Notes under the pieces: model-generated
Databases searched by the model: none
Told to the model about the DNA's origin: nothing
Seen by the model: only the letters and a program-made list of their open reading frames with translations
Position numbers and translations under genes: made by a program
Part shown: positions 781-60,508 of the stretch, in pieces
Numbering within the stretch: the stretch's first letter is position 1
Layout: each line of letters begins with the position of its first letter
DNA from: Deltaproteobacteria bacterium
Lineage (GTDB): Bacteria; Desulfobacterota; Desulfuromonadia; Desulfuromonadales; Geopsychrobacteraceae
DNA length: 64,000 nt
Direction: 5' to 3'
Assembly: GCA_018399135.1 (NCBI GenBank)
Contig: JAGYPB010000003.1
Span: 23,639 to 87,638 of the forward strand

Positions 781-932
781 GATGGTGTCGCAAAAACTCG
801 CCAATGGCTGAGTTGCTGCGCCTATCCACCGCTACGACGTACATAAATACCCCACATTGCTCAATAATCGCGCGCCATGCATGTGGCGCCTTTTGCTTAG
901 CCATCGACATTGATACTTTTGCGAAAGCATCA
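781..932 (+). repeat. Dispersed repeat family A, copy 1
   Basis: GATGGTGTCGCAAAAACTCGCCAA...GACGTACATAAATAC...CGCGCCATGCATGTGGCGCCTTTTGCTTAGCCATC...ACTTTTGCGAAAGCATCA aligns end to end with 38447-38600 (+) and the reverse complement of 60353-60508. Confidence 0.9.
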
Positions 933-935
933 CTA

Positions 936-2345
936 ATGGTTAATCCCTCTCTGCAGGAACTGACCCGTGAGCTTGATGCGATCATCGACTCTTCCTCCGA
1001 TGGTCTGTTCGTCTGTGATGCCGGCGGGCGGATTTTGCGAGTTAATCCCGCTTCAGCACGCATCAATAATGCCACCCCCGAGCAGCTTGAAGGGCGCGAT
1101 TATCTTGAGGTTGCCAATGAAGGACTGGTATTGCTTCCTTCCGCAGCCCTGGAAGCCATCAAAGCCAAAGCCCAAGTCAGTCTGTTACAGCAGAGCCGTA
1201 CCGGGCGTAAACTGATTTCTACTGCAACACCGGTTTTTGATGATCATCAACAACTGATTCGGGTGGTGGTCAGTGAACGCGATGTTACCGAGATTGAGCG
1301 GCTCAAACGTGATCTGGAAGACCAGCAGGAACTGGGTAACCAGTTTCGTCGGCAGCTATCCCAGTTGCAGCGTGAGCAGTTAAATGGCCGGGACGTTATC
1401 GCCGAGAGTCCGTTGATGGCGGCGACCCTTAAGCAGATCCGGCGTTTGAGTCAGGTCGATTCAACGGTGCTGCTTCTGGGTGAGTCGGGGGTTGGTAAGG
1501 GCTTGATTGCCGATCTTATTCACGTCGGCTCTCATCGTGCCCAGCAACCGATGATCAGGCTCAATTGTGGGGCGATTCCGGAATCCCTGATTGAGGCAGA
1601 GCTGTTCGGCTACGAGCGCGGGGCCTTTACCGGGGCGGTTGCCAATAAACCGGGTCAGCTCGAGTTGGCTGACAAGGGGACGGTGTTTCTTGATGAAATT
1701 GCTGAATTGCCATTGTCAGCTCAGGTCAAATTATTGCGCTTTATGGAGGATGGCCGGTTAACCCGCCTTGGTGCCACCAAAGAACGGCAGATTGATGTGC
1801 GGATCATTGCGGCAACTAACCGTGATCTGAAGCAACGGGTCGATAACGGACTGTTCCGTGAGGATCTTTATTATCGCCTCAGCGTCATCCCTGTGCATAT
1901 TCCCCCATTGCGCCGGCGGCAGGAGTGTGTGGTGCCGTTATTGAACTCCTACCTCCATTATTTTGCTGAGCGTGACGGGGTGCAGCGACAGTTGACCCCG
2001 GCAGTTCTCGATCTGCTCTGTGCTTATGGGTGGCCTGGGAATGTGCGTGAATTGATGAATCTGTGTGAGCGTCTGGTGGTCATGTCCGAGGGGCCACTGA
2101 TTGATGTCAATCATCTGCCTGTGGCGATTTTATCCAATAGCACAACCAACAGTGAAATCTCAACCCAGTGGCCGTCGCCAATGACCATGGCGCAGATTCT
2201 GGCCAGTGTTGAACGAGAAATTCTTCACCAGGCCCATAAACGTTACGGCAGACAGTGTCTGATTGCCGAAAAGCTGGGAATGAGTCAGCCCACGGTAGCG
2301 CGTAAATTGCGCCACTATGGGATTGGTAAGTTTTTAGGTGAATAA
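936..2345 (+). CDS. Sigma-54-dependent Fis-family transcriptional regulator with PAS domain
   Basis: GESGVGKG Walker A, GAFTGA, LDEIAELPLSAQVKLLRF, C-term Fis-type HTH; the track ORF start at 804 runs into repeat A, so ATG 936 (MVNPSLQEL) is preferred. Confidence 0.9.
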   Translation: MVNPSLQELTRELDAIIDSSSDGLFVCDAGGRILRVNPASARINNATPEQLEGRDYLEVANEGLVLLPSAALEAIKAKAQVSLLQQSRTGRKLISTATPVFDDHQQLIRVVVSERDVTEIERLKRDLEDQQELGNQFRRQLSQLQREQLNGRDVIAESPLMAATLKQIRRLSQVDSTVLLLGESGVGKGLIADLIHVGSHRAQQPMIRLNCGAIPESLIEAELFGYERGAFTGAVANKPGQLELADKGTVFLDEIAELPLSAQVKLLRFMEDGRLTRLGATKERQIDVRIIAATNRDLKQRVDNGLFREDLYYRLSVIPVHIPPLRRRQECVVPLLNSYLHYFAERDGVQRQLTPAVLDLLCAYGWPGNVRELMNLCERLVVMSEGPLIDVNHLPVAILSNSTTNSEISTQWPSPMTMAQILASVEREILHQAHKRYGRQCLIAEKLGMSQPTVARKLRHYGIGKFLGE

Positions 2346-2353
2346 GCCCGGGA

Positions 2354-3199
2354 TCATAGCTCCTGATCGCTGCGTATCCGCAGGTACGAGGGGAATTTTG
2401 GAATTCCTGACTGATAGTAGCCATGGTGCTTGTAGTTGATGACTGTGTTGATAGCGGGCGGGTTGTCGCGATCCGTGTCGCTTAAGCCACTTCCGATTCG
2501 GAATTCCGTGCCATCAGCGGCTCTGACCAGCAGGGCCCCCAATCTTCCGCTGTTGCGACCTTTGCCGGGCAGGTGAGCAATCACCGTTGCTTCGGCATCA
2601 TGGAAGTTTTTTGCCTTGAGGATATGGGGACGGCGCCCCGCCTGATAGAGGGCATCCGGATCGCGGATAATCAGCCCTTCACCACCCAGAGCTTCAATGC
2701 GCTTCAACTCCTGATCCAGGTGCGCGTGGTTTTCTACCGGAATCTGTTCAACAACAAAGGCATTAGGCGAGGGAGATTTTGTAAACCAAATAACGGCGGC
2801 TGTGATCCGCTTGCGAAATGGTCCTGGTGTCGCTGGAACGTCAAAGACAGCAAACTGAAGTTGCAGCCAGCCGGCGTGCGGTTGCTGGTGCATGACGATG
2901 GATGCCGTCTGTTCAAAGGTGCCACGACCGCCCCACAGCTCCCCCTCCAGGGGAAAGGGTGGCAGGTCGGCGGTAAATTCCGGTGGCGCAGCCAGGCGGT
3001 TCCCATTTTTACTATACAACTGTGAACCGTCCCAGTAACCACGAATACCGTCAAGCTTTTCACTCATCCACCAGCCATCAACTGCCGTTTGCGTGGTGTA
3101 GGTCTGCGGCAACATCGGTTCGAAGGCCACAGCGGGAGTGAAGATAAGGGTCAGCAGAGACAGACATAACAAGCTTGTGGACGTGATAATTTTTGACAT
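2354..3199 (-). CDS. Minimal ATP-dependent DNA ligase (LigE/LigB-like) with N-terminal signal peptide
   Basis: SEKLDGIRGYWDG nucleotidyltransferase motif I, GELWGGRG, GGEGLIIRDP, LKAKNFHDAEATV; N-term MSKIITSTSLLCLSLLTLIFTPAVAFEP is signal-peptide-like. Confidence 0.85.
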   Translation of the reverse strand: MSKIITSTSLLCLSLLTLIFTPAVAFEPMLPQTYTTQTAVDGWWMSEKLDGIRGYWDGSQLYSKNGNRLAAPPEFTADLPPFPLEGELWGGRGTFEQTASIVMHQQPHAGWLQLQFAVFDVPATPGPFRKRITAAVIWFTKSPSPNAFVVEQIPVENHAHLDQELKRIEALGGEGLIIRDPDALYQAGRRPHILKAKNFHDAEATVIAHLPGKGRNSGRLGALLVRAADGTEFRIGSGLSDTDRDNPPAINTVINYKHHGYYQSGIPKFPSYLRIRSDQEL

Positions 3200-3282
3200 G
3201 TTCCCCCTCCATGTATAAAAACTGCTCAAATAGTCGGTATGATTTGGCTATTACCTGATCCCTCGATCCTGTAAATGTTCTT

Positions 3283-3822
3283 TCAGCGGCGGAGATTGCC
3301 GCAGTCGGCCGAAATCCAGCGGGCTTTCTGGTTGACGTTGAACTCTTCCGGCTTTCCGTCCATCTCAGTGTGAATGACGGCGTTGCCGCTGTACTCTTTG
3401 GGATTAACGATGGTGACATTGCCCTCGCCGCGGGAAGGCGGGTCGCCGGCGCAGGCGAAGCGGATATGAATGCGGTCGCCACTGCGTTCGACGATCTCCT
3501 GGGTGCAGTTTTCATCGGCCAGATGAAGTTTATTATCGGCGATGTCTGCGGCGGTGATGCAGAGGCGGAAGCTGGTTTCGTCCTTGCCGAAGTTCACCCC
3601 TTGAGCGGCCATCATCTGTTCCATCATTTGCCGTTGTGCCGGGGGTAACGCGTCCAGTTGCTGACGCGCCTGGCGCATGGCCTCTTCCATCTGACCGCTT
3701 TGGCTGGTCATCTGTATGCGATGCTCCCACAGTCCCGGTTCAATGTTTAACGGTTGCGCGACAGCCTGATGGGCGCTAAATGCAGCGATCAGGACGAACA
3801 GCAGGATCAGTTTATGTTTCAT
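3283..3822 (-). CDS. DUF3617-like secreted protein
   Basis: Signal peptide, then NIEPGLWEHRIQMTSQSG; family recognised by pattern. Confidence 0.65.
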   Translation of the reverse strand: MKHKLILLFVLIAAFSAHQAVAQPLNIEPGLWEHRIQMTSQSGQMEEAMRQARQQLDALPPAQRQMMEQMMAAQGVNFGKDETSFRLCITAADIADNKLHLADENCTQEIVERSGDRIHIRFACAGDPPSRGEGNVTIVNPKEYSGNAVIHTEMDGKPEEFNVNQKARWISADCGNLRR

Positions 3823-3914
3823 GGTCACCTCCTTGAAGATTTTGCCCCGTCAGCTTGCGAACACAGGATATTATCCTAGATTACATAGTTTTTCCTGGCG
3901 CAGGAGCCGATTTT

Positions 3915-4217
3915 ATGACGAACGATATTTCCCTCTATCAGCACATTTATACCCTGGTAAAGCAGATTCCACAAGGCCAGGTGGCCAGCTATGGTTCTCT
4001 GGCTGGTGTGGCCGGGACTACAGCGCGGGTGGTCGGTTTTGCCCTGGCGGTCTTGCCCGAGCAGAGTGCTGTGCCCTGGCAACGGGTCATCAACAGTCAG
4101 GGGGCCGGATCAGCGCCAGAAAGGACAGCGACCGGGCAAAGGTACAACGGGCGTTGCTGGAAGCCGAAGGTTTGTTTTGATGCGTCCAGCAAGGTTGATT
4201 CAGTCTGCTTTCGTTAA
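3915..4217 (+). pseudogene. MGMT/Atl-like DNA-binding domain protein, frameshifted
   Basis: LYQHIYTLVKQIPQGQVASYGSLAG..ARVVGFAL....VPWQRVINSQG in frame 3, RISARKDSDRAKVQRALLEAEG in frame 2, then FDASSKVD in frame 3. Confidence 0.7.
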
Positions 4218-5060
4218 CCGTATATTGTTCAGATTCGCAGGGCATGTTTCTACTGCCAGCAGCACTTCCCTTGCGTTGCAGACCGCCGCGATAGCCGCCG
4301 ATGAGCCGTCCCCCGCAGCACACGATGACGGGAATCAGATAACAGATCGGATTCTGGCCGATGGCCTGACCGACGCGCGAGAACAGCGGTCCGGTTGGCC
4401 GATTTTCTCAACAATCTGGCGATAAGCGGCAGGCAGCCAGGGCGGAATGTGCGGCAGCGCCTGCCAGACGCGAGCTGAAATTCGTGCCATGCAGATGCAA
4501 TATCAGGGGATTGTCTGGTTCATTCAGCATGGGTGCAAAGATCTTTTTGACGATGTTTGCTGTTGCGTCACTGTCTTCAGTGAGCTGCGCGTTGAGCCAG
4601 TCTTTATGCAATTGTTTCAGGGTGCTGATGCCGTCATCATCAAAAATCCAGCCGGCAGATGCCCCTTGAGGTTACGCCAATCAGGGCCGTCGAAAGGGGG
4701 TCGGGTGCACCTGTAGCGCAGGTGCAGGTTCTCTCCTTTGCTACGAACTTCACCAGGGGTGACCACCGCCTCGACGGCAACCAGCAGATCGTGGAGACGA
4801 CTCGGGCTACTTAGGCCGCTGGCGAAAGGTTTCCAGAATCGATGCCGACTGATCCAGCAGCTGTCGACGCTTGCTGCTGGTGAGAGATGTTGCAGATAGC
4901 GTTTGGGGCTGATGCCATATAGCGTCGGAACAAGCGCTGGCAAGAAGGTAGCCAGGGCTCAACGAAACAAGCGGCAAATCTGTCCAGTGGCGGTTGCCGA
5001 TCGGTGTTTGTTTGGTGAATGGGTGATGATGTCGATCATGCGCTGATAGTCGCTTGGCAT
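4090..5060 (-). pseudogene. Degenerate or frameshifted hypothetical protein gene
   Basis: Consecutive minus-strand fragments in different frames (MPSDYQRMIDIITH..., PDWRNLKGHLPAGF..., HKDWLNAQLTEDSDATANIVKKIFAPMLNEPDNPLILHLHG...). Confidence 0.4.
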
Positions 5061-5222
5061 CTGGCTGATCTCCTTTTGGTTAATACGCTAGCACTGGTGG
5101 AGGATACTGCCAATCCGGTGTCATTTTACCGTCGTAGTGACTTTTTCTCTTGCAACTTTTTTTTTTGATTCGGGTATCTAGATGGCCTCGGGCGCAGCAC
5201 ATTTCCACATTGATAAGTCTAC

Positions 5223-5268
5223 GTCCCTATCGTCTAGCCTGGCCCAGGACACCGCCCTTTCACGGCGG
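5223..5268 (+). tRNA. 3'-truncated tRNA-Glu (UUC) remnant
   Basis: GTCCCTATCGTCTAGCCTGGCCCAGGACACCGCCCTTTCACGGCGG contains the acceptor 5' strand, D-arm and anticodon arm (CCGCC-CTTTCAC-GGCGG, anticodon TTC); no T-arm or 3' acceptor strand follows. Confidence 0.75.
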
Positions 5269-5501
5269 CAGAAGTGCGCCAAAAAACACCACACAAATAC
5301 CAGATAAAGAAAATCTGCATCAAATGTCACATGCAAGCTACCTCTGACATGCAGCCCATGGGAGTAACCGGGGCGATGCTATGCTTTTGCAGTCCAAAAA
5401 ATGCTACAACGCAAATAGCTCCGTTTAAAGTGCCGTTGACCTCTTTACTAAAAGCACATATGATTACACATATACTTTTGTGTTGGTTGTGGAGGTTTTC
5501 C

Positions 5502-5732
5502 ATGGGACAGGTCACAATTTATTTGGATGATGAGATCGAAGCTAAAATGCGCGCGGCTGCACAGTCTCAAAATCTTTCTCAAAGCAAGTGGGTCGCTCAA
5601 TTGATTAAAGAAAAAACCTTGGATCAGTGGCCGGAGTCAGTCGTCAGACTTGCCGGCACATGGGATGACATGATTATGGCAGAAGAGATCAGGTCATCCT
5701 CTGGCGCTGATACCATCAGGGAGAAATTGTGA
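5502..5732 (+). CDS. VapB-like antitoxin (RHH-type)
   Basis: MGQVTIYLDDEIEAKMRAAAQSQNLSQSKWVAQLIKEK; RBS GGAGG upstream; followed directly by a PIN toxin. Confidence 0.85.
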   Translation: MGQVTIYLDDEIEAKMRAAAQSQNLSQSKWVAQLIKEKTLDQWPESVVRLAGTWDDMIMAEEIRSSSGADTIREKL

Positions 5733-6127
5733 TGTATGTTCTTGACACCAATACATTGATTTATTTTTTTAAAGGTGTCGGGAATGTTGCAAAAAATCTG
5801 CTCAACCATTCCCCAAGGGAGATTGGAATACCAAGCATTGTTTTGTTTGAACTTGAGGTCGGTATCGCTAAATCCAGCGCACCTGACAAAAGAATGAAAC
5901 AGCTTGAGGAAATTATTTCAATCGTCAGCATCCTTGATTTTACCGCAAAAGAGGCCAAGGTCGCTGCTGCCATCCGTGCCCAACTCGAAAAAGCGGGGAC
6001 ACCAATTGGCCCCTTCGATACTCTGATCGGGGCTACTGCCCTGGCCAACCAGTCCACACTGGTGACCCACAACATAAAAGAATTCAGTCGGATAAATAAG
6101 CTGCCAATTGAAGACTGGTATCAGTAG
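5732..6127 (+). CDS. vapC: VapC-like PIN-domain toxin
   Basis: MYVLDTNTLIYFFKG, SIVLFELEVGIAKS, IGPFDTLIGATALANQSTLVTHNIKEFSRI; ATG overlaps the vapB stop. Confidence 0.9.
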   Translation: MYVLDTNTLIYFFKGVGNVAKNLLNHSPREIGIPSIVLFELEVGIAKSSAPDKRMKQLEEIISIVSILDFTAKEAKVAAAIRAQLEKAGTPIGPFDTLIGATALANQSTLVTHNIKEFSRINKLPIEDWYQ

Positions 6128-6137
6128 ATGGTAATAA

Positions 6138-6232
6138 ACGGGGGGCATGATAAACTGGGGACATAATACCGATTATCTCCATAATCGGTATTATGTCCCC
6201 AGTTTATCCCGTTTATCGTCCTATGCCCCCGT
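6138..6232. repeat. Long hairpin with perfect 28-bp inverted repeat and 4-nt loop
   Basis: GATAAACTGGGGACATAATACCGATTAT (6149-6176), CTCC, ATAATCGGTATTATGTCCCCAGTTTATC (6181-6208); outer arms ACGGGGGGCAT/ATGCCCCCGT also pair. Confidence 0.95.
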
Positions 6233-6243
6233 CCAAGGATCGA

Positions 6244-6708
6244 ATGTTGACTAATCAACCTTCACAACTTGTAGAAATCTTTTCCGATGGTGCCTGCTCC
6301 GGCAATCCCGGCCCCGGTGGCTACGGAACCATTTTGCGCTTTGGTAACCACGAGAAGGAACTATCGGGTTTCGCTGAGTTGACCACTAATAACCGGATGG
6401 AGTTGCTCGGGGCAATCGTTGGCCTTGAAGCCTTGAAACGCCCCTGCCGCATCCGTCTGACGACCGATTCCCAATATCTGATCAAAGGGGTGACCGAATG
6501 GTCTGCCGGGTGGCGGCGCAACGGCTGGCGCAACTCCAGGAAGGAGGAGGTAGCCAACCGCGATCTGTGGGAACGTCTGCTTGAGCTGGTAACAATCCAT
6601 GATATTGAATGGGTCTGGGTCAAGGGGCACGCCGGCCATGCGGAAAATGAGCGTTGTGATGAGTTGGCGCGGCGCGAGATTGTAAAAGCGGCGAACGGCG
6701 TGTCTTGA
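6244..6708 (+). CDS. rnhA: Ribonuclease HI
   Basis: [74 protein letters not shown]; track start 6193 lies inside the hairpin, ATG 6244 preferred. Confidence 0.95.
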
Positions 6709-6838
6709 TCGGCAGGGTAAAAAAAGTACAACTTTTTAACACACGACTTCTCTGATTGATGACAGATGTGGTAGTATCCGTCGCGTGTTCATTCATGACG
6801 GTCTTTAGATAAGAGCTTTCCCCTTTGCTGGAGATATC

Positions 6839-7279
6839 ATGTCCCTTCCAGATGCAGGCACTGTTTCACCACCGGTGACCCCGGCAGGGGTCGAAGGCTT
6901 TATTTCCTTCGCCCTTTACAGTGTTATTGCTGTAAGTTTGATTCTGCTGTTGATGTTCCTTGCCTGGTTTCTCGGGCAGCGCACCACCTCCGCTGAAAAA
7001 AATGCTCCTTACGAATCCGCCGTTGATCCGATTGGTGACGCGCGCTTAAGTGGTCCGGTACCTTTTTATCTGGTCGCCATCTTTTTTATCATTTTCGATC
7101 TGGAAGCCGTGTTCATCGTGTCCTGGGCCGTCGCCTATGATCTGCTGGGGTGGAACGGCTTCTGGCAGATTTCCTTTTTTATCGTCAATCTTTTCCTGGG
7201 GCTGGTGTATCTGTGGAAGATGGGTGCACTGGACTGGGGCGTACAGCCCGCACGTAATCGGCGCAGGAGATCTTCATGA
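6839..7279 (+). CDS. nuoA: NADH-quinone oxidoreductase subunit A
   Basis: [20 protein letters not shown]; first gene of the nuo operon. Confidence 0.95.
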
Positions 7280-9657
7280 GTGAAAAACTGCCACAGGGGG
7301 TATTGCTCACCCGTGCCGATGACCTGATCAATTGGGGGCGCAAAAACAGCCTCTGGCCGATGTTTTTCGGTCTGTCCTGTTGTTTTGTCGAGATGATGAC
7401 GAGCATGACCCCGCGTTTTGACCTGGCGCGCTTCGGCGCGGAAGTGCTGCGTGGAACGCCGCGCGAGTCGGATGTGATGATTATCTCCGGCACCCCGTTC
7501 AAGAAGATGGGTGCTTCCATCCTGCGGGTCTATGAGCAGATGCCCAACCCCAAATGGGTTATTGCCATGGGCAGTTGCGCCAACTCCGGTGGCATGTACG
7601 ATGTTTACAGTGTCATCCAGGGGGTCAACCAGATTCTGCCGGTGGATGTCTATATCCCCGGTTGCCCGCCCCGCCCCGAGGCTTTTTTGCAGGGGATTAT
7701 CGAACTGCAAAAAAAGATTGTCGCCGAAGAGCAGCCGGCACGTAAGGTTTTTGGTATGGCGGGCGGCAGTGAAGGAACAACGGTACCGCCGCTGGTCGAT
7801 GGCGTCACCAAGAGCCGCGACCCGCGCGGGCCGGGCTATGGCAACACCCCGCTGCGTGGAACCGTGCAGCAGCCACCCGCATTCCCCCACAACCGTACCG
7901 CCAACAGCTGGCGGCCGCCGCAGCCCAAACAGGAGTTTCCGCCTTCAGCTGAGGCTGTCTATCGTGACGTACAGGAACGCTTCAAGGGGGAGGTGACGAT
8001 TGATCCGTTAGCGGCTGATATGCCGGTGCTGATCTGTCCGGTGGCGCGGATTCGTGAGCTGCTTTACTTTCTCAAGCATGAAGCGGTGATCAAGTATCAG
8101 CGCCTGGAAGATCTGACCGCTATTGATGAACGTCTGCGGCGCCAACCCTGCGATCATCAATTTACCCTGGTCTATCACTTGCTCAACTTTAGCGATCCCG
8201 GTTACCTGCGGATCAAGGTGCCACTGACGGGTGAATACCCACAGGTACCAACGATCACCGAAATCTGGCCGTCGGCTGGTTGGTACGAACGCGAAGTTTT
8301 TGATATGTTTGGCATCACGTTTCCCGGTCATAAGGATCTGCGGCGGATTCTGATGCCGGCCACCTGGGAAGGTCATCCCTTGCGTAAGGAGCACCCGTCG
8401 CGCGCCACCGACATGCCTCCTTTTACCGTTGATACTGCCATGGACTATATTCCAGTGGCGGCAGACAAGCTTGTTCCTCTGCCTGGAGCCGATGACGGCA
8501 GCATGGTGTTGAATCTCGGGCCACATCACCCTGGTACCCATGGCGTATTGCGTGTGGTGCTGCGGATGCAGGGGGAAGAATTGACCGATATCGATGTCGA
8601 TCTCGGTTACCACCACCGGGGCGCTGAAAAGATCGGCGAGCGCCAGCACTGGGCACAGTTTATTCCCTACACCGACCGTATCGATTACCTCTCCGGGGTG
8701 CAGAACAACCTGGCCTATCTGCATTCCCTTGAAACCCTGCTCGGGGTCTCGGTGCCGCAGCGCGCTGATTATGCCCGGGTGATGTTGTGTGAGCTGTTCC
8801 GTCTGGCCAGTCATCTGGTCTGGCTCGGCACCTATGCTCACGATGTCGGGGCCATGACCCCGGTCTTCTACTGTTTCGACTCGCGCGAAAAGATATTTGA
8901 TATCGTTGAGATGATCACCGGCGGGCGCATGCATCCGTCCTGGCTACGCATCGGTGGCCTGCCCCTGGACCTGCCGGAAGGCTGGAAACAGAAGGTTGAC
9001 ACTTTTACCAGCGATTTTGACAAACGCATCAATGAGCTCGACAGCATGCTCACCGACGGCCCGGTGTTCCGTGCCCGGAGTGAAGGCGTCGGCATTGTCA
9101 ACCTGGATGAGGCCCTCGACTGGGGTTTCTCCGGCCCTAACCTGCGTGCCAGTGGCTCCAGCTGGGACTTGCGCCGCACGATGCCCTACAGTGCCTACAA
9201 TGACTTTGATTTTGATGTGGTCAGTTTCACTGGCGGTGATTGCTTTGATCGCTACCGCGTGCGCCTGGAGGAGCTGCGCCAGTCGTTGCGGATTGTCAAG
9301 CAGGCGGCCGAACGCATGCCGGGCGGGCGCTGGATGACCGATGATTACCGCTATACCTACCCGCAGCGCGGCGATGGCCTGCACGATATCGAAAGCCTGA
9401 TTCATCACTTTGTCAATGTGTCGAGCGGTCCGGTTGCACCCTTGGGCGAAGTTTATCGAGCGACGGAGTCGAGCAAAGGGGAGTGTGGTTATTACCTGGT
9501 CAGTGATGGTGGCAGCAGTGCCTACCGCTGCCGTATCCGCACCCCATCCTTCGCCCACATGCAGGCGTTCTCGTGGATCTGCAAAGGGAGTATGCTGGCG
9601 GATATGATTGCGGTGATGGGATCGATTGATTTTATATTGGCAGATCTTGATCGTTAA
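7276..9657 (+). CDS. NADH-quinone oxidoreductase subunit B/C/D fusion
   Basis: NuoB motifs ([30 protein letters not shown]), NuoC ([24 protein letters not shown]), NuoD ([15 protein letters not shown]..., C-term DFILADLDR) in one 793-aa frame. Confidence 0.95.
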
Positions 9658-13809: not shown

Positions 13810-14794
13810 AATGCTGGTGACCCTGGCTCTGATTCTGGGAAAACTACTGTTCATTTTTGGTGTTGTTCTGTTCATGGCGGCCTATCTGGTGCTGGCGGAA
13901 CGCAAGATTTTGGGGCGTATGCAGCTGCGCTATGGCCCCAACCGGGTTGGCCCTTTTGGGTTGATGCAACCGCTAGCGGATGTCATCAAGTTGTTGACCA
14001 AGGAGGATTTTGTCCCGGCACGAGCCGACAAGTGGTTGTTTTTGATTGCGCCTGGGATTACTGCCGTCACGGCCCTGTTGGTTTTTGCTGTTATTCCCTT
14101 CGGTCCAACTCAGGAAATCTTCGGTCAACAGGTTCCTCTGGTGGTGGTTGATCTGAATATCGGGGTGCTCTACTTCCTCGGTGTATCGTCCATGGCCGTC
14201 TACGGGGTGGTGCTTGGGGGATGGGCTTCGAACTCCAAATATTCCCTGCTTGGCGGGGTTCGTGGGTTATCGCAGATGGTCAGCTACGAACTCTCTTTGG
14301 GTTTGTCGCTGGTGCCGGTGATTATGATGGCCCGGTCATTTTCCTTGACCGATATCGTCATGGCTCAACAGTCGCTCCCCTTTATGTTGCTTAATCCCGT
14401 TGCCTTCGGGGTCTTTTTTATCTGTGTGCTGGCAGAAAGCAATCGTATTCCTTTTGACTTGCCTGAAGCTGAAAACGAACTGGTTGGCGGCTTTCACACT
14501 GAATATTCAGGGATGCGTTTCGGTCTCTTTTTTGTCGGTGAATACATCAATATGGTGGTTCTCGGTTCGCTGGTGACAGTATTTTTCCTCGGTGGCTGGC
14601 ACGGCCCGTGGTTGCCGCCGATGCTCTGGTTTTTGCTTAAAGTGCTGGCGGTGTGCGCCATGTTTATCTGGATTCGCGCCAGCATGCCGCGCCTGCGTTA
14701 CGATCAATTGATGAATCTGGGTTGGAAAGTCCTTCTGCCCCTGACGCTGGTCAATATTCTGGTGACCGGCGCTGTCTTGTTGGGATTGGGTTAA
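13802..14794 (+). CDS. nuoH: NADH-quinone oxidoreductase subunit H
   Basis: LAERKILGRMQLRYGPNRVGPFGLMQPLADVIKLLTKED. Confidence 0.96.
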   Translation: MNEMLVTLALILGKLLFIFGVVLFMAAYLVLAERKILGRMQLRYGPNRVGPFGLMQPLADVIKLLTKEDFVPARADKWLFLIAPGITAVTALLVFAVIPFGPTQEIFGQQVPLVVVDLNIGVLYFLGVSSMAVYGVVLGGWASNSKYSLLGGVRGLSQMVSYELSLGLSLVPVIMMARSFSLTDIVMAQQSLPFMLLNPVAFGVFFICVLAESNRIPFDLPEAENELVGGFHTEYSGMRFGLFFVGEYINMVVLGSLVTVFFLGGWHGPWLPPMLWFLLKVLAVCAMFIWIRASMPRLRYDQLMNLGWKVLLPLTLVNILVTGAVLLGLG

Positions 14795-14798
14795 CAGT

Positions 14799-15329
14799 AT
14801 GCATGTTATCAGAGGAATTCGCGGAACCTTTCAGCCCTTCTGGGTAACATTGCGTAATATGTTCCGTAAGCCGGTGACGATCCAATATCCGGAAGAGAAA
14901 CAGCAACTCCCTGAACGCTATCGGGCGCGGCTGATCTTGACCCGAGATCCGGACGGGGCCGAACGTTGTGTTGCCTGTCATTTATGCAGTGCCGCCTGTC
15001 CGGTCGATTGCATCTCCATGCAGGCCGCTGAAGCCGAGGACGGGCGCCGTTATGCCGCCTGGTTCCGCATCAATTTCACCCGCTGTATTTTTTGCGGACT
15101 CTGTACCGAGGCGTGTCCTACGTTGGCGATTCAGGTGACAGCAGATTTTGAACTGGCCGGTCGTGATCTGCTCAAGTTGGTGTATGAAAAGGAAGATCTG
15201 CTGGTCGATCATTGTGGTAACGACAATAGCTACAACTTCTATCGCCAGAGCGGGATCGGCGTTGCTGCGCCGCGCGGTACCAATCCCGGCGAAACTCCAC
15301 CGGCGGATGTCAAGGATCTGATGCCATGA
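14799..15329 (+). CDS. nuoI: NADH-quinone oxidoreductase subunit I
   Basis: Two 4Fe-4S motifs CVACHLCSAACPVDCI and CIFCGLCTEACPTLAI. Confidence 0.96.
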   Translation: MHVIRGIRGTFQPFWVTLRNMFRKPVTIQYPEEKQQLPERYRARLILTRDPDGAERCVACHLCSAACPVDCISMQAAEAEDGRRYAAWFRINFTRCIFCGLCTEACPTLAIQVTADFELAGRDLLKLVYEKEDLLVDHCGNDNSYNFYRQSGIGVAAPRGTNPGETPPADVKDLMP

Positions 15330-38393: not shown

Positions 38394-38446
38394 GGAGCTG
38401 TCTCCTTTAACCGGTGACCAGGCTATGACCTGTCGTGGCTAACCTT

Positions 38447-38600
38447 GATGGCGTCGCTAAAACTCACCAACTGCTACGTTGGCGCAATCGTCTTCCTGCT
38501 TCGATGTACATCAGTACGTCTCACTGCTCGACAATTGCGCTCCTTGCATTTGGCTCTTTTTGCTTTGCTATCTAATGATTTACTTTTTGCGAAAGTATCA
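38447..38600 (+). repeat. Dispersed repeat family A, copy 2
   Basis: GATGGCGTCGCTAAAACTCACCAACTGC...GATGTACATCAGTACGTCTCACTGCTCGACAATTGCGC...TTGCATTTGGCTCTTTTTGCTT...TTTTTGCGAAAGTATCA. Confidence 0.9.
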
Positions 38601-38891
38601 ACCTTCATGTGAAATAGGTGAAAGATGGTTGTCTCACGGAGCCGCAATTCAGTTGCTTAAGCGAACGGGTAGCGAAAAAACCTCTTAAGTAGTGCTTGCT
38701 CATGAGAAACCTCCGAGGATATTAACAGAGTCAGAAGTTCAGCGCAAGAATATTGATAGTGTTTTTTAATTTGCTTATAAGTTCATGGTCAGATTGATCA
38801 ATCCAGACAGATGAAACTTTTTCCTCCGGGTGCGAAACGGTGAAAAAATAGAGATTATTTGTTGATTTTCATGCATAGATTCTGTTAATTA

Positions 38892-52369: not shown

Positions 52370-52457
52370 TGCCTTGCCTTGTCAGATAGGAATTGAATCG
52401 AAAAACCTCTCAAGCAAAATAGAATAATCATTTCACCTCCGCATGCATGCTAAAAGG

Positions 52458-52486: not shown

Positions 52487-52531
52487 TGATTAATCCGATG
52501 GTGGCTATTGCATAAACCGATAGGAGTATTT

Positions 52532-53437
52532 ATGACCCTGCGTCAGCTTGAATTGTTTGTAGCGGTTGCCGAAACCGGCAGCTTTTCCCGTGGCGGTGAA
52601 TTCTTGTCCCTCACCCAGTCAACGGTGAGCCAACATATTGCCGCCCTTGAAGAAGAGTTTGGCGCAAGACTTCTTGATCGAATCAGTAAAGGGGTTGTGC
52701 TTACTGCCGGAGGAAAAGTTTTTCTCCACCAGGCCCGCATGATTATCGCCGAGGTTGATCAGCTTAAACAGGCGATGAATCGTTTTCACGGTATAGATCA
52801 TGCCGTTCTTGAATTGGGCGCAAGCAATATTCCGGCAAATTATCTGGTGCCAAGGCTGCTGCCAATATTGCATAAGCGCTATCCGGGAATTGAAATGAAT
52901 GTTCGGATGGGGGATACGCAGCAGATTCTCAATGATATCCGTGATCAGCACGTGGAGTTAGGTTTGGTGGGCGGTCGAGTTGAAGATGACCTTTACCGTT
53001 ACACCCCGGTGATGTCGGATGAATTGATTTTGATTGCCGGCATCGATCATCCTCTGGGTCAGGTTGCAACGATCAGTCTGGGGCAAGTGTTTGAACTGCA
53101 ACTGGTGGTTCGTGAACCGGGTTCCGGAACCTGGCAGAGTCTTTATAATGCCCTGCTCAAAGCGGGCTGTGATCCCCAGTCATTGCATGTGCTCGCGCGC
53201 CTGGGAAGCAACGAAGCGGTACGTCGTACCGTTGCTTCCGGCTATGGCTGTGCCTTTGTTTCAGATCTGTCAGCCAGGGAAAGTATCCAGCGTGGGGAAT
53301 TGCACCGGGTTGAGGTTGATGGATTACAGATTGTCCGGCAACTCTGGCTGGCAGAGATGGCTGAGCGCACCAGCTCCCCGGCGGCTCAGGCGGTAAAACA
53401 GCTGGTTATTGAAAACTTCGGAAGCGGGGAACGCTGA
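52532..53437 (+). CDS. LysR-family transcriptional regulator (CysB/selenium-metabolism-like)
   Basis: MTLRQLELFVAVAETGSFSRGGEFLSLTQSTVSQHIAALEEEFGARLLDR. Confidence 0.93.
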   Translation: MTLRQLELFVAVAETGSFSRGGEFLSLTQSTVSQHIAALEEEFGARLLDRISKGVVLTAGGKVFLHQARMIIAEVDQLKQAMNRFHGIDHAVLELGASNIPANYLVPRLLPILHKRYPGIEMNVRMGDTQQILNDIRDQHVELGLVGGRVEDDLYRYTPVMSDELILIAGIDHPLGQVATISLGQVFELQLVVREPGSGTWQSLYNALLKAGCDPQSLHVLARLGSNEAVRRTVASGYGCAFVSDLSARESIQRGELHRVEVDGLQIVRQLWLAEMAERTSSPAAQAVKQLVIENFGSGER

Positions 53438-53560
53438 GAACGTTAAGATCGGTCAGCAAAGCTTTACATTAACGGTTTTCTGATTATAATGTTATGCGTT
53501 ATTTTTATCTGACAAAATACCAATAATTTTCAAGGGTCTATTCATTACTAATGAAAAGGA

Positions 53561-53986
53561 GTGATGCTAATGAGAAAACAGATTGTACGCTATGTAGGTA
53601 AACCTCTGTGCCTTTTCCTTGCCCTGTGCTTTCTTACTGTCGATGTCGGTATTCATACCGCGCAGGCAGGGATGATCAGTACCGAAACGGTTCTTGCTGC
53701 GCAGGCCAATAATGAGGCGCGCACGCAGGTGGTGGATTTTTTCGCCCGTGAGGATGTCCAGCAGGTCATGGTATCTCAAGGGGTGGCTGCGGATGAAGTG
53801 GCTGCACGGGTGGCCAGCCTGTCCGATGCTGAAGTCATGCAGATTGCCAACGAACTTGATCATCTTCCCGCAGGGGCCAGTTTGGGTACAGTGGTCGGTG
53901 CCGTCCTCTTTATTTTTGTGGTGCTGCTCGTCACTGATATTTTGGGATATACAAAGGTTTTTACCTTTGTCCAGCCTATTCGCTAG
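53561..53986 (+). CDS. PA2779-family protein
   Basis: Small exported or membrane protein, EARTQVVDFFAREDVQQVMVSQGV...; directly upstream of a PA2778-type gene. Confidence 0.8.
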   Translation: MMLMRKQIVRYVGKPLCLFLALCFLTVDVGIHTAQAGMISTETVLAAQANNEARTQVVDFFAREDVQQVMVSQGVAADEVAARVASLSDAEVMQIANELDHLPAGASLGTVVGAVLFIFVVLLVTDILGYTKVFTFVQPIR

Positions 53987-54949
53987 ATGTTAACAGGTAA
54001 GTTAAAAAGCGCAGGTGGGCGGTGGCTAACCTGCGCTTTTTTTTGTATTGGTACTCTGCTCACCAGCGGCTGTAGCACCTATCAATATCAGAGCGCTTTG
54101 CGCCCTGAGCCACAGCGTGTTCAACTCGCTGAAGTCCCCTTCTTTGCACAGGAAGAGTACCAGTGTGGGCCGGCAGCGCTGGCCATGCTGCTGGCGTGGA
54201 ATGGTGAGGATATTTCCTTGCCGCAACTGGTAGAGCAGGTTTACTCACCGGCACTTCAAGGAAGTCTGCAGCCGTCTATCGTTGCTGCTGCCCGGCGGCA
54301 GGGTTATTTGGCGTATTCCCTCAATGGCTGGTCTGAGCTGATAGCTGAGCTTAAAGGCGGACAACCGGTGATGATAATTCAAAACCTTGGTTTGTCCTGG
54401 TATTCACGGTGGCATTATGCCGTGGTCATTGGTTACGATCAGGAAGATGGAACGGTGCTTCTCCACTCGGGGGTCTATCCCGAAATGACCATGTCTATGG
54501 GGGTTTTCGAGCGTACCTGGCGGCGCGGTGATTATTGGGGGCTGGTTGTCGTCCCTCCGGATAGTATGCCGGCCAGCGCTACCGAAAACGCTTTTCTGAG
54601 CGCCGTTGTCGGTCTTGAGCGGGCACAACAGTTTTCTGCGGCCAGGGCAGGTTATCATGCTGCTGTTGATAAGTGGCCCAACAGTTTTGTTGCATGGATG
54701 GGGATGGGTAATAGTAGTTATCAAGCTGGAGATATGGACACAGCTATCCATTCTTTTCGTCAGGCAGCTGCGCTACAGCCGGAAAGCGGCATTGCGCTGA
54801 ACAATCTGGCCCTGGTTCTGGCGGTGGTCGGGTCGCGCGTTGAGGCACTGGATGTGATTGATGAAGCCATCACCCGCGGGGGGGAATTACAAGGTGCTTT
54901 CCGGCAGACCCGAAAAAAAATAATAGCTGGAGAAATGCCGGTAAAATGA
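53987..54949 (+). CDS. PA2778-family C39-like cysteine peptidase / TPR lipoprotein
   Basis: Lipobox LTSGC, EEYQCGPAALAMLL, RWHYAVVIGYDQ, TPR-like C-term. Confidence 0.85.
   Translation: MLTGKLKSAGGRWLTCAFFCIGTLLTSGCSTYQYQSALRPEPQRVQLAEVPFFAQEEYQCGPAALAMLLAWNGEDISLPQLVEQVYSPALQGSLQPSIVAAARRQGYLAYSLNGWSELIAELKGGQPVMIIQNLGLSWYSRWHYAVVIGYDQEDGTVLLHSGVYPEMTMSMGVFERTWRRGDYWGLVVVPPDSMPASATENAFLSAVVGLERAQQFSAARAGYHAAVDKWPNSFVAWMGMGNSSYQAGDMDTAIHSFRQAAALQPESGIALNNLALVLAVVGSRVEALDVIDEAITRGGELQGAFRQTRKKIIAGEMPVK
54004..54044 (+). terminator. Terminator-like hairpin inside a CDS start region
   Basis: AAAAAGCGCAGGT-GGGCGGTGGCTA-ACCTGCGCTTTTTTTT; 13-bp perfect stem, 12-nt loop, 8-T tract. Confidence 0.8.
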
Positions 54950-54983
54950 GCTGCCGTTGTCTGTGCAACGGTGGCAGTAATGG

Positions 54984-56909
54984 TCATTTAAGCAGTTTGT
55001 TGATAACCTCCCGGTACTTGGTTTCGATAACGTGACGTTTCTTTTTCAGCGTGTTGGTCAATTCTTCGCCGGCAGTAAATTCCTTGTCTAAAAAATGAAT
55101 GTTCTGAAGTTTTTCAAAAGGTTTGAATCCTTTTTTTGTATTCAACAACTTATTGATTTCGACTTTGACCCGATCCAGAACCTTTTGATCAGAAAGCAGC
55201 TGATCCTTGGTTTCTGCCAGTTGTTCAGCTTTGTCGGCAATAAACTCACGTAACAGATCCATATCAGGTACGATCAGCGCACCAAGCCCTTTTTTATCCT
55301 GTCCGACCAGAACCGCATCGGTGACAAAGGGGAGTTGGGTAATGGTTGACTCAATCCGACTGGGATCAATATTTTCACCACTGGCCAGAACAATAATTTC
55401 TTTTGAGCGACCAGTAATCACCAGCTCGCCGCTCAATGTCAATTTGCCCAGATCGCCGGTGCGAAAAAAACCGTCAGCAGTGAAAGCGTTACGATTTTCT
55501 TCGTCGTCCTGGTAATAGCCTGGGAATACCTGCTCTCCACGAACCTGAATTTCCCCTTCTTCTCCAGCGGGCAGTTTCTGACCCTCTTCAGCGACAATTC
55601 GCAGTTCCGTCCCTTTTGTGGGTGGCCCCAGGGTGCCGAAAATCTCACAGTTCAGTGCCCGTCCGGCAATGGCTGGTGCGCATTCGGTCATGCCGTAGGC
55701 GTTGACGATGCGGATGCCGATGGCATCGATCCACTCATCCAGATAGGTTGGCAAACTGCCACCACCACTGATCGCCATGCGTAAGCGTCCCCCAAAACGC
55801 GTTTGCACTGCCGCGAGTTTTTTCAGGGCGAAACGGTAAGGTAATAACAGGCTAACTAGCATACTGAGGGAGATCAGTTTTTCCCAGACAACAATCAAGG
55901 GGTTGCTGTGGTGAAATCGTGGTAACTGGTTTTTCAGGCGACGCCGGTGAAAACGATAAGTGACAGAGATAGTTACGAGCTTTTTAAAGATGCGCGCCTT
56001 ACGCGGATCCTGTTTTTCAAGGGTTTGATTGATCTTGCTGTACATCGATTCCCACAGCCGCGGCACCGTTGCTACCAGAGTAGGCTGGTAGGTTTCCAGA
56101 TCGGCAGCAAAGGTTTTGATGCTTGAATAAACGGTGCAGCACCCTTGTGATAAAGCAAGATATTCACACGCCCGTTCAAAAATATGCCAGCTTGGCAGAA
56201 TGGAGACAAAGCTGTCGGTTTCTTTAAGGGCAATGATTTCCGGCAGGGTGTGGACATTGTACATAATGTTGCGGTGGGTGAGGATGACCCCTTTGGGATT
56301 GCCGGTGGTTCCTGAGGTGTAGATCAGGGTAAATGTGTCGTCAAGGCTTAAGGCGTAGCGACGGGCAATGAATTCTTCCCGGTCGCCTGGGGTGATAGTT
56401 CGGTCGTCAAGGATGTCATTGTAACTGTAGACATTATCGAACCAGCGGTGGGTCTTTCCGCCTTCGATAACGAAAATCGACCGCAGGTTCTTCATCTTCT
56501 TGAGCATGGTGCTGTGGGCTTTGAGCAGTGCTTCTGTTTCAATAACCAGAAACTCGCAATCGGCATGTGCAAGAATGTATTCGAGTTCCTGGGTGGGGGT
56601 ATCGCTGCCGCGCGGAATGCTGATCGCTCCTAGAGAGATCAGGGCAACGTCGGTGACTATCCAGCCGTAGCGGTTGTCCGATAACAGCATGACCTTGCTT
56701 CCCTTGCCAACCTTATGGGAGGCAAAGGCTTTGGCAAGAATCAACGCATCCTCAAAAAGCTTGCCATAACTGACGTGAAATTCGCTGCCGGCGGCACGAT
56801 AGATAAAAGCGTTGTGCTCAGCATAGTTTTCACTGCTGGCTAGCAAAGTATCAAACAGGGTTCCCTGTGGCGTGACGGCAGTAACCATCATGGTTATTGT
56901 CCGCAGCAC
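54984..56909 (-). CDS. Long-chain acyl-CoA synthetase (AMP-binding)
   Basis: [64 protein letters not shown]. Confidence 0.95.
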
Positions 56910-57376
56910 TTTTTGAATTTTTTACCACTGCCACAACCGCACGGGTCGTTACGGCCAATCTTGGAGACAGTCACTGGGGGAGATTTGATCATTTCCCCCT
57001 CGGTAAACAGCCAATGACCGTCGAGTTTGACAAAATGCCCGCGCTCATGATGGTTGCGGATCACCCCTTTGTCGCGAAAACGCGCAATGAATTCGACCTC
57101 GCCGCGCTCACCATCAGCGCTGTCTGTGCTTGTTGCAACCACTTCGAGCCCGAGCCACTGGGATTTTTCGGCCCAGCTTTTGGTGCCTTTGTGGTCGTAA
57201 TTGGTGCGGTGGTCCGGGTGGGTGCTGTTGTAAAGAAAATCAACCGCCACCTTGTCATGGGCACTGTAACGGGCACGCATTAGTTCTTCCGCTGTTGCCG
57301 CAATTTTATTACCGCTGATGAATGGTTCGCAACAATCGGCATATTCCATGTTTGTGCCGCACGGGCATAGGTTCAC
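56894..57376 (-). CDS. YchJ-family SEC-C metal-binding protein
   Basis: [18 protein letters not shown]...[15 protein letters not shown]...[19 protein letters not shown]. Confidence 0.93.
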
Positions 57377-57438
57377 GGGAGTCTCCTTCTTGCTTCAATA
57401 AATGAACACAAAGGGCGGGGTATTATCTTGAGGAAAAC

Positions 57439-57495
57439 GTAACTATTCAGCTCTATCCTTGCCCAGGATCCCCGAACCGGTACTGAACAGAATAC
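57439..57495 (-). repeat. Repeat family B, short copy
   Basis: GTAACTATTCAGCTCTATCCTTGCCCAGGATCCCCGAACCGGTACTGAACAGAATAC. Confidence 0.85.
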
Positions 57496-57505
57496 GGAAA
57501 AACAA

Positions 57506-58027
57506 TTACTGATTCGTTGGTGTCTGCTCTGCTGCCATGCGCGCCCGCCGGGCCTTACGGCGTTCACGGATCATCCGTGTGTCTTCGTAAAGATCGCTGA
57601 AGGTAGCCTGAAGGGTGTCCTCAAAGGTGGCCATTTCGCCATTGTTTTCTGCGATAAAAGCTTCCGCATCAGCCCGCTGGGCAAAGGCCCATTTAGCGCG
57701 TTTGCTCATTACTCCGGGGCGCTTTCCACCAATCACCCAGATAGCGGTTTCAGCGTCAATCAGTTCGTCGGTGTAATAATCACCGACCATCATCTGTACT
57801 GGTGCCTTGTCAAGATTGTTGACCATATCTACAGCCGCACAGCGGATGCTGCAGGTCCCGACCTCACTGCCGTCGTCATACACAAGCAGCATGCGGCTGA
57901 AGGAGAATTTACCGCGATCCATTCCGCAATGAGGGCAGGAGGGGTGGTTGACAATGTCGCTCTGAGAGCCGATAACTAGAGTGGCAACAAACAACAGGGC
58001 AAAAAACAGCAGAATAATTTTTTTCAC
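57506..58027 (-). CDS. NosL-like protein
   Basis: PSCPHCGMDRGKFSFSRMLLVYDDGSEVGTCSIRCAAVDM; GTG start after GGAG. Confidence 0.85.
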   Translation of the reverse strand: MKKIILLFFALLFVATLVIGSQSDIVNHPSCPHCGMDRGKFSFSRMLLVYDDGSEVGTCSIRCAAVDMVNNLDKAPVQMMVGDYYTDELIDAETAIWVIGGKRPGVMSKRAKWAFAQRADAEAFIAENNGEMATFEDTLQATFSDLYEDTRMIRERRKARRARMAAEQTPTNQ

Positions 58028-58180
58028 AATAATCTCCTCGTAGGCCGGGGCATTCATTGCCATAGCATAGGTACAAAAACCTGACCGCATCCTTTTACCA
58101 GTAAATTGTGGCAACGACAAGGGCCCGGCGAATTTTTGTCCCAAGCCGGATGACACCGCCGCAGCGGAGAATGACAACAG

Positions 58181-58855
58181 ATGGATCCCCTTTATTCCCT
58201 GGCATTAATGACCGGATTATTCGGCTCCGCCCACTGCATTGGTATGTGCGGCGGTATTGTTACCGCACTATCGCTGACCGCCGATGGGCGCAACAGCGGC
58301 CCCTTGTTTCATCTGCTCTATAATGTCGGCAGAACAGTCACTTACGGACTGATCGGCCTGGTAGTCGGCTGGCTCGGTTCGGCTCTGGCAATGAGCGGTT
58401 CTTATCAGCTGGTGACCCTGGGGCTGTTGATTTTCAGTGATATTCTTGTCATCCTGATTGGACTCGGTAGCGTCGGCCTGTTTAAACGGATCAATATCAT
58501 GGCCCTCGAGTTTGCCGGGCCGATTCAGTATTTGTCACGTGCGGTCAAAGGCTTGCGTAGATTACCTCCGGCGTTGTCGGCTCTGCCACTGGGGATGCTG
58601 TTCGGTTTTTTGCCTTGTGGGCTGTTATACGCTATGGCGATTACCGCCGCCGGTAGCGCTGACCCGCTACGGGGAGGTATCACCATGGTCGCTTTTGGTG
58701 TTGGCACCATTCCCTCCCTGTTTCTGGTCGGGAGTGCCGCTCAGTGGTTCAGCCGCAAGCGCAACTGGATGCTGAAAGGGGCTGGGTTGCTGGTTGCCCT
58801 GATGGGTTGTTATAATTTGTTCCGGCATCTGACCATGGATGTTGTTTGTCATTAG
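58181..58855 (+). CDS. Sulfite exporter TauE/SafE-family (cytochrome biogenesis-like) membrane protein
   Basis: GLFGSAHCIGMCGGIV, GMLFGFLPCGLLYAM. Confidence 0.88.
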   Translation: MDPLYSLALMTGLFGSAHCIGMCGGIVTALSLTADGRNSGPLFHLLYNVGRTVTYGLIGLVVGWLGSALAMSGSYQLVTLGLLIFSDILVILIGLGSVGLFKRINIMALEFAGPIQYLSRAVKGLRRLPPALSALPLGMLFGFLPCGLLYAMAITAAGSADPLRGGITMVAFGVGTIPSLFLVGSAAQWFSRKRNWMLKGAGLLVALMGCYNLFRHLTMDVVCH

Positions 58856-58885
58856 CAGACTGTTTAAATCAATCTGGAGAAGTCG

Positions 58886-59998
58886 ATGGAAGAATCAGTC
58901 AATAAGCTCATTGTTCAGTTTTTGAATACGCTTAATCTTGATGGAAATTATGCCTGGATCATTCAGGCTTTTATTGTTGTCCTGCTGACATCCTTAGCCA
59001 GTTATGGGGTCAAAAGGACTTTTGATCGTCTTGAAAAAACGGCACAGACTACCAAAACCTTTTGGGATGATTTACTCATCAGCTCAGCTCGCAAACCGGT
59101 ACGGATTTTTATCTGGCTCAATGGTCTGTTATGGGCAACTGAAGTTGTCCGTCAAGTTTCGAATGAGCCGATTTTTAATTTTATCGATCCGATCCGTGAA
59201 GTTTCCTTTATTGTGATTTTTGCCTGGTTTATGACAGGCTTGATCAATAAGGGTGAAGCGACAATTCAAAGCCCAAAACGAGTGAAAAAACCCCTTGATG
59301 CAACAACCGCATCGGCTCTGGGCAAATTATTACGGTTATCGGTGCTGATAACGACAGCGCTTGTTGTCCTGCAGACATTGGGCTTTAGTATTTCAGGTGT
59401 GTTGGCTTTTGGTGGTATCGGTGGTATCGCCGTCGGTTTTGCTGCCAAGGATCTACTCGCCAATTTTTTCGGTGGCTTGATGATCTATCTGGATCAACCA
59501 TTCAGGGTCGGCGATTGGGTGCGCTCGCCCGATAAAGAGATTGAGGGGACAGTTGAAAACATCGGCTGGCGTCTGACTTGTATCCGAACCTTTGACAAGC
59601 GCCCTTTATATGTTCCCAATGCAACGTTTGCCACAATTTCTGTGGAAAATCCGTCGCGGATGACTAACCGGCGTATTTTTGAAAACATCGGGGTGCGTTA
59701 TGCTGACGGCAATAAAGTCGTCACTATCGTCAAGCAGGTCAAAAAGATGCTGTGTTCGCATCCGGACATCGCTGCCGATCTGACGATGATCGTCAATGTG
59801 AATCGCTTTGCCGCTTCTTCCATCGATTTTATGGTCTACACCTTTACCAAAACCACGAACTGGGTGGAATTTCATGGCATCAAAGAGGACGTGATGCTCA
59901 AGATTATGGGGATTATTGAAGATAACGGGGCAGAGATTGCTTACCCGACCCAGACGATTCATCTCGAATCACCGGAACCCGATCCGCAGGAACAGTAG
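58886..59998 (+). CDS. MscS-family mechanosensitive channel
   Basis: GGIAVGFAAKDLLANFFGGLMIYLDQPFRVGDWV, VPNATFATISVENPSRM. Confidence 0.94.
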   Translation: MEESVNKLIVQFLNTLNLDGNYAWIIQAFIVVLLTSLASYGVKRTFDRLEKTAQTTKTFWDDLLISSARKPVRIFIWLNGLLWATEVVRQVSNEPIFNFIDPIREVSFIVIFAWFMTGLINKGEATIQSPKRVKKPLDATTASALGKLLRLSVLITTALVVLQTLGFSISGVLAFGGIGGIAVGFAAKDLLANFFGGLMIYLDQPFRVGDWVRSPDKEIEGTVENIGWRLTCIRTFDKRPLYVPNATFATISVENPSRMTNRRIFENIGVRYADGNKVVTIVKQVKKMLCSHPDIAADLTMIVNVNRFAASSIDFMVYTFTKTTNWVEFHGIKEDVMLKIMGIIEDNGAEIAYPTQTIHLESPEPDPQEQ

Positions 59999-60047
59999 TT
60001 CTGAACTGCAGGTCATATTGATACTCAATACCCAAGGAGACAGGAAC

Positions 60048-60332
60048 ATGGCAAAGGCAAGCGCGCGGCACATTCTGGTACCATCAGAGGCAGACTGTAA
60101 TACCTTAAAAAAAATGATCGAAGGCGGCGAGGATTTTGCCGACGTGGCGAAACAGCACTCAAAATGTCCTTCCGGCAAGCAGGGGGGTGCGCTGGGCGAA
60201 TTTTCCCCCGGGCAGATGGTCAAGGAGTTTGACGAGGTGGTTTTTTCCGGTGACATCGGCAAGGTGCTGGGGCCGGTCAAGACCCAGTTCGGTTATCATC
60301 TGATTGAGATTACCAGCCGCACCGACTCATAA
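60048..60332 (+). CDS. Parvulin-type peptidyl-prolyl isomerase
   Basis: ARHILVPSEADCNTLKKMIEGGEDFADVAKQHSKCPSGKQGGALGEFSPGQMVKEFD. Confidence 0.95.
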   Translation: MAKASARHILVPSEADCNTLKKMIEGGEDFADVAKQHSKCPSGKQGGALGEFSPGQMVKEFDEVVFSGDIGKVLGPVKTQFGYHLIEITSRTDS

Positions 60333-60352
60333 GATTCTGGATATCAACTAAT

Positions 60353-60508
60353 TGATGCTTTTGCAAAAAAGCATCAGGTGGGATGACTAAGCAAAAAGCG
60401 CCAAATGCAAGGCGCGCTATTGTTGAACAATGAGACGTACTTATGTACGTCGAAGCAGCGAAATGATGGCAGCAACGCCGCAGTTGGTGAGTTTTTGCGA
60501 CGCCATCA
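60353..60508 (-). repeat. Dispersed repeat family A, copy 3 (reverse orientation)
   Basis: Reverse complement GATGGCGTCGCAAAAACTCACCAACTGCGGCGTTGCTGCC...GACGTACATAAGTACGTCTCATTG...GCGCGCCTTGCATTTGGCGCTTTTTGCTTAGTCATCC...TGATGCTTTTTTGCAAAAGCATCA. Confidence 0.93.

Follow-up and report, generated by a model that had tools for sequence, protein, structure and literature searches.

Several multicopy intergenic repeats already described in bacteria bear comparison with the element reported here. Chunjie, a miniature inverted-repeat transposable element (MITE) of Geobacter uraniireducens, is 178-235 bp long, lies between genes in tens of copies, and has terminal inverted repeats (TIRs) and direct repeats (PMC10969869). 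ERIC and Correia elements are intergenic imperfect palindromes with many copies and of a size class similar to that of the present element, ERIC occurring across related families, and transcripts containing these elements are processed by RNases (PMC10969869). The accounts of the Pelobacter carbinolicus and Geobacter bemidjiensis genomes report unexplained multicopy intergenic repeats, some of them palindromic (PMC3543383, PMC2996986); these belong to the same broad bacterial group as the present element. Of the transposons in the IS1182 family, ISPse1 is 1653 bp long with 16-bp TIRs and 4-bp duplications (PMC3281130), and IS1272 is 1,934 bp long with 16-bp TIRs and replaces inverted-repeat targets without any duplication (PMC5678879). 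The present work concerns a dispersed repeat found three times in a 64-kb stretch of DNA (the window; contig JAGYPB010000003.1) from a metagenome-assembled genome (MAG) of a Deltaproteobacteria bacterium, which is 84.9% complete and amounts to 2.86 Mb in 153 contigs. The repeats are very probably copies of a MITE, a non-autonomous DNA transposon. Its ends also occur on a DDE transposon of IS1182-like type, which would mobilize the copies in trans.

The element is about 150-155 bp long, has no coding capacity, and extends from GATGGYGTCGCAAAAA to TTTTTGCGARWGCATC, both of its ends being inverted repeats. When the copies are read together with their flanks, the start GATGGYGTCGCAAAAA and the end TTTTTGCGAAAGCATC are constant, and the reverse complement of the end, GATGCTTTCGCAAAAA, mirrors the start; with its TIR pair GATGGYGTCGCAAAAA / GATGCNNTCGCAAAAA, this is the short non-coding element with inverted ends that the term MITE denotes. 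Its parts are the two inverted terminal repeats (consensus GATGNNNTCGCAAAAA), an imperfect palindrome of about 127 nt, and a short right-end module. The palindromic body closes with TTTTTGCTTAGCCATC, and the start of the element pairs with the end of the body to form a single long rod hairpin, which the right-end module follows. The core hairpin GACGTAC-ATAA-GTACGTC that an earlier note on this DNA had singled out is real, but it is just the apex of this far longer rod. At least two sequence subfamilies, with ends and overall fold in common, are found among related genomes: subfamily I reads CTCACCAACTGC...GACGTACGTAAGTACG..., and subfamily II reads GTCCGCCCTACGGCG...CTCGACATAC...GTATGCCTTC...CCTGAAAAA. 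Chunjie, the MITE of a related iron-reducer, resembles it in lying between genes, in numbering tens of copies and in having TIRs and direct repeats, and differs from it in length, which is about 155 bp here. ERIC and Correia differ from the present MITE in their hosts, TIRs and target duplications.

The mobility of the family is well supported. Exact target duplications of 6-7 bp abut the GATGG / CATC ends in 78 of the 135 copies with non-redundant flanks, compared to the 1.2 expected by chance from shuffling the right flanks of the copies; the corresponding figures in the first set of copies were 39 of 70 and 0.8. The duplicated hexamer mostly has the form A-N4-T, with A first in 62/78 cases and T last in 72/78. 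The flanks of several copies align to continuous orthologous DNA that lacks the element, and thus identify empty sites, the clearest being those of locus L118 against L190 and of L190 against L347, while some other comparisons are ambiguous; when L192 is compared to L391, the orthologous site turns out to hold a scar that has lost the hairpin body by deletion. Once the element is removed, 35 of 186 sites (19%) fall within an open reading frame (ORF), whereas positions drawn at random from these loci do so in 77% of cases.

The earlier note had held a REP/MITE-like or structured RNA element to be plausible. TIRs, 6-bp target duplications and empty sites together indicate a MITE rather than a repetitive extragenic palindrome (REP), so that the second half of the first label stands and its first half does not. 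Elements of the REP/REPIN type, which owe their dispersal to a RAYT (Y1 tyrosine) transposase with single-stranded hairpins as its substrate, do share with this family a palindromic structure, an intergenic location and tens of copies, and they could also account for the one-strand constraint on the hairpin and for an orientation that tracks replication in genome G059 (both described below), as expected of single-strand insertion. The clear 6-bp duplications and TIRs nevertheless contradict an origin of this type, and the size of about 155 bp and the ends held in common with a DDE transposon also speak against it; we judge it exceedingly unlikely.

Within the window the three copies indeed align over their full length, as the earlier note had stated, with a mean column identity of 79%, and the window has no other strong dispersed repeats. 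A blastn search with copy 3 as the query recovers the other two at 3e-34 and 6e-27, so their similarity is not due to chance. When target duplications are taken into account, the limits of the copies shift by 1-2 bp from those first given, to the positions in the following list.

781 to 931, plus strand: MITE copy 1, subfamily I, old, without an exact target duplication; it fills the gap between the stop of a Usp-domain gene (779) and the ATG of a sigma-54 activator-like gene (936)
781 to 796: left end of copy 1, nearly identical to that of copy 3
38441 to 38446, plus strand: left target-site duplication of copy 2, AACCTT, by direct sequence reading
38447 to 38599, plus strand: MITE copy 2, subfamily I; its neighbours are an OmpR-type regulator gene on the minus strand (start 38393) and an ORF for a PrmA-like methyltransferase (from 38892)
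38447 to 38462: left end of copy 2, nearly identical to that of copy 3
38600 to 38605, plus strand: right target-site duplication of copy 2, AACCTT, by direct sequence reading
60354 to 60507, minus strand: MITE copy 3, subfamily I, nearest to the consensus; a DMT transporter gene (stop 60510) and a parvulin gene (stop 60332) converge on it with their 3' ends
60492 to 60507, minus strand: left terminal inverted repeat of copy 3, GATGGCGTCGCAAAAA
60354 to 60369, minus strand: right terminal inverted repeat of copy 3, TTTTTGCAAAAGCATC (reverse complement GATGCTTTTGCAAAAA)
60381 to 60507, minus strand: hairpin body of copy 3, GATGGC...GTCATC (consensus GCCATC), with the more stable fold formed from the plus strand

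Copy 1 takes up the whole gap from the Usp gene stop to the activator ATG at 936, an in-frame ATG lies inside it at 804, and there is no clear Shine-Dalgarno sequence before 936, so that the leader of the sigma-54 activator gene is MITE-derived. Insertions that adjoin a start codon are also seen in two other loci, at L064 1501-1656, where the duplication AGGGAT overlaps the Shine-Dalgarno/ATG region, and at L224 1501-1653; the window holds the locus orthologous to these insertions at 14402-15196, which aligns across the junction.

The search for an autonomous transposon with the same ends was carried out by two routes. Looking for TIR pairs with duplications in the loci taken from genomes yielded no transposon with MITE ends: the TIR pattern in G058 marks just MITEs, nested 242-bp variants and scars, and lone TIR ends in G059 and G007 are remnants without a parent transposon. 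A search by transposase family revealed a decayed gene in G074 (L394) with TTTTTGCGAGGCCATC downstream of it, which resembles the MITE end, while no MITE-type ends were seen at a second transposase fragment in that genome (L398). When a related C-terminal fragment of 106 aa, also from G074 (P0001), was compared with 136 genomes of the order at E<=1e-10, relatives were detected in 3/136. In G091 (L401 1319-3199) an intact 575-aa transposase gene lies in a 1.88-kb element with the TIRs GATGGTCCCGCAAAA at both ends, and in G130 (L402), a genome of the same genus as G059, a transposase fragment is followed by TTTTTGCGAATGCATC, a sequence identical in every letter to the one that closes the G059 MITEs on the right. 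MITE-type ends therefore stand at a transposase locus in each of three genomes (L401, L402, L394).

The G091 transposase matches the Pfam families DDE_Tnp_1_6 (PF13751) and DUF772 (PF05598) above their cut-offs, domains that it has in common with the IS1182 family, and the 1.88-kb length and the TIRs of about 16 bp resemble those of ISPse1 and IS1272. ISNCY was also considered as the parent family and gave a lead in the search, but the best model was IS1182. No relative of the transposase was found in viral_contigs, and among plasmids the closest relative, which comes from Microvirga, has 37% identity to it; this IS1182-like element (Microvirga sp. VF16 plasmid, L404 1132-2943) has ends that begin ATGACGG and possibly a 4-bp duplication, AGCT. 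On the strength of these sequence comparisons, an IS1182-like DDE transposon that is rare in the order is the probable autonomous parent of the MITE, and with the likely parent elsewhere in the order, a transposase is not needed near the copies.

A number of observations weigh against this interpretation. The NCBIfam IS1182 model (NF033551) matches the G091 protein over 477 aa with E=2.8e-49, yet the score of 168 bits lies under the curated cut-off of 270. The window's own genome yielded neither an intact transposon nor any relative of the transposase, the 106-aa fragment being the sole query; the covariance model detects no MITE in G091, although the intact transposon is there; and there is no exact duplication in the flanks of the G091 transposon. 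Exact duplications are likewise not seen at window copies 1 and 3, which would be expected if these copies are older. The target behaviour also differs from that of published members, the MITE duplications being 6-bp A-N4-T rather than 4 bp (ISPse1) or none (IS1272); the stem-loop target without duplication is a trait described for IS1272, not for all IS1182 members, and it is not what the MITEs display. If the parent link is right, then the 6-bp A-N4-T habit would mark a distinct group relative to the published IS1182 members, given that ISPse1 and IS1272 themselves differ in target behaviour.

According to the MITE interpretation, the IS1182-like transposase would act in trans and cut at the GATG/CATC ends, and the element would insert at 6-bp staggered cuts. 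Intergenic copies would survive and copies within genes would mostly be lost, while in genomes with no detected transposase relative, such as the window's own, the copies would be stranded remnants. More tentatively, the hairpin may be kept because a single-stranded form of the strand opposite to the direction of the earlier note, either a transcript or DNA exposed in replication, plays a part in the spread or the tolerance of the element.

The compensatory changes that the earlier note had proposed to look for are present in the hairpin body. RNAalifold folds 15 copies from the window's own genome into a single rod, with six pairs backed by double changes, and in non-redundant sets of 60 bodies (subfamily I) and 72 bodies (subfamily II), Watson-Crick double changes occur at 9/22 and 10/31 pairs respectively, whereas sliding the pairing out of register leaves no more than 4. 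Folding of either strand reveals that the strand opposite to the direction used in the earlier note is the more stable in 92/95 and 136/137 bodies (228/232). Single mismatches inside Watson-Crick helices, counted in a strand-neutral manner, are G-T rather than A-C by 37:11 and 58:6, counts that are not independent because the copies share ancestry; by columns the ratios are 7:1 and 6:0 in the two subfamilies. The hairpin body thus looks constrained as a single-stranded nucleic acid, RNA or DNA, in the strand opposite to the earlier direction.

It might instead be supposed that the covariation is purely mutational, intrastrand template switching having corrected imperfect palindromes in a body without function, which would be compatible with the MITE interpretation. 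Quasi-palindrome correction is an established mutational process, and body-deleted scars are common (L187, L343, L345, L391), which suggests some processing of the palindrome while the DNA is replicated. Template switching would be expected to affect both strands alike, yet G-T exceeds A-C by 13 columns to 1 in the two subfamilies combined, although this count is softer than it appears, since the copies are related. We regard the mutational explanation as possible, if on balance unlikely.

The compensatory changes, the strand-specific GU asymmetry and the conservation across an order could also be produced by a structured regulatory RNA family, either a cis-acting leader or a small RNA, which is repeated by happenstance. 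The family is instead shown to be mobile by its target duplications, its empty sites and a copy number that is patchy among genomes, and the class and position of the neighbouring genes are inconsistent. Outside G059, moreover, copies between tandem genes are co-directional with them in 68 cases versus 30, so that the more stable strand is usually not transcribed and appears to be kept out of mRNA. Rfam contains no match in the window at the gathering score, the best hit of copy 3 below the threshold being TarA (18 bits, E=0.74). A regulatory RNA family is thus very unlikely: what holds of the "structured" label in the earlier note is the hairpin with its compensatory changes, rather than a role as a free-standing regulatory RNA.

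The orientation of the copies relative to replication is striking in one host. In the closed genome G059, 57/64 copies have the plus strand of the earlier note on the leading strand (Fisher p=2e-10), the replichore limits having been taken from the orientation switches and afterwards compared with sampled GC skew (whole contig G059:C1; loci L241-L260, L309-L328, L372-L391). The orientation switches coincide with the GC-skew switches, and orientation is independent of gene strand, 17/46 flanking genes being opposed. In G046, neighbouring copies on a contig share an orientation in 22 cases versus 8, and the count by GC skew, which is weak there, is 15/24. No orientation bias was found in G058, G003, G002 or G084, which indicates that the bias is host-specific.

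These patterns raise the prospect that some hosts have recruited the element to mark the direction of replication on the chromosome, in the manner of KOPS or Chi. The G059 orientation, which holds regardless of gene strand and changes with the skew, and the shared orientation of G046 neighbours are what such a role predicts, but the four genomes without bias are not, the 15/24 skew count in G046 says little either way, and insertion bias or orientation-dependent loss would be equally explanatory; recruitment of this kind seems most improbable. A further proposal, which we consider doubtful, is that the one-strand fold is selected and couples insertion or survival to the replication fork, so that the element would derive from a DDE transposon and yet pass through a hairpin stage confined to one strand; if this were true, nearly all copies in some hosts would point one way relative to replication.

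As the earlier note had surmised from three copies in 64 kb, the family is present in many copies genome-wide: in the window's own MAG, blastn with copy 3 recovers 18 matches, and the covariance model recovers 19 at E<=0.1. That note had also allowed that the repeats might prove few and devoid of covariation, or might belong to a catalogued element; the copies are many, and as far as Rfam goes no family was matched. The element is present in 45/60 relatives, and the covariance model detects it in 64/89 well-completed genomes of the order, representing 34/42 genera, with per-genome counts that range from 1 to at least about 60, and detects none in many other genomes of the order. Among the matches listed in a pattern scan of named genomes are Desulfuromonadales MAGs (Geopsychrobacter, Desulfuromusa, Desulfuromonas, Pelobacter), Desulfobulbales (Desulfurivibrio, Desulfocapsa) and Desulfobacterales. 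Plasmid records gave no DNA match to a subfamily I query, and phage records gave none to a subfamily II query. Copies also occur in MAGs labelled as lying outside Desulfobacterota, namely BMS3Bbin05 (L108, L212), Chloroflexi C2.bin.19 (L137, L149, L164) and Bacteroidales AUK297 (L145), and these may reflect either lateral spread or mis-binned contigs.

Several loci depart from the standard structure. Scars in which the end modules are left and the hairpin body is deleted (GATGGCTAAGCCATC and similar) lie at L391 ~4802-5625, L345 1312, L343 745 and L187 4969. Variants of 242 bp in G058 have another inverted-repeat sequence nested in the MITE (L336 1098-1339, L337 1046-1287, L341 851-1090); the L336 variant has AATAGT on either side, so transposition of the nested form as such is possible. 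Head-to-tail tandem copies are found at L226/L233 (G059 1258494-1258948), L315, L317 and L140.

The MITE family is ordinary in kind, while its reach and its single-strand signal are above average. A common repeat of an environmentally important metal- and sulfur-reducing order is now named and delimited, with a likely transposon source, which allows the repeat to be masked or dated in genome annotation and assembly. The retention of one hairpin and of its strand asymmetry by diverged subfamilies provides a test of passive versus selected MITE bodies, and the replichore-oriented copies of G059 make the choice between insertion bias and orientation-dependent loss a testable one.

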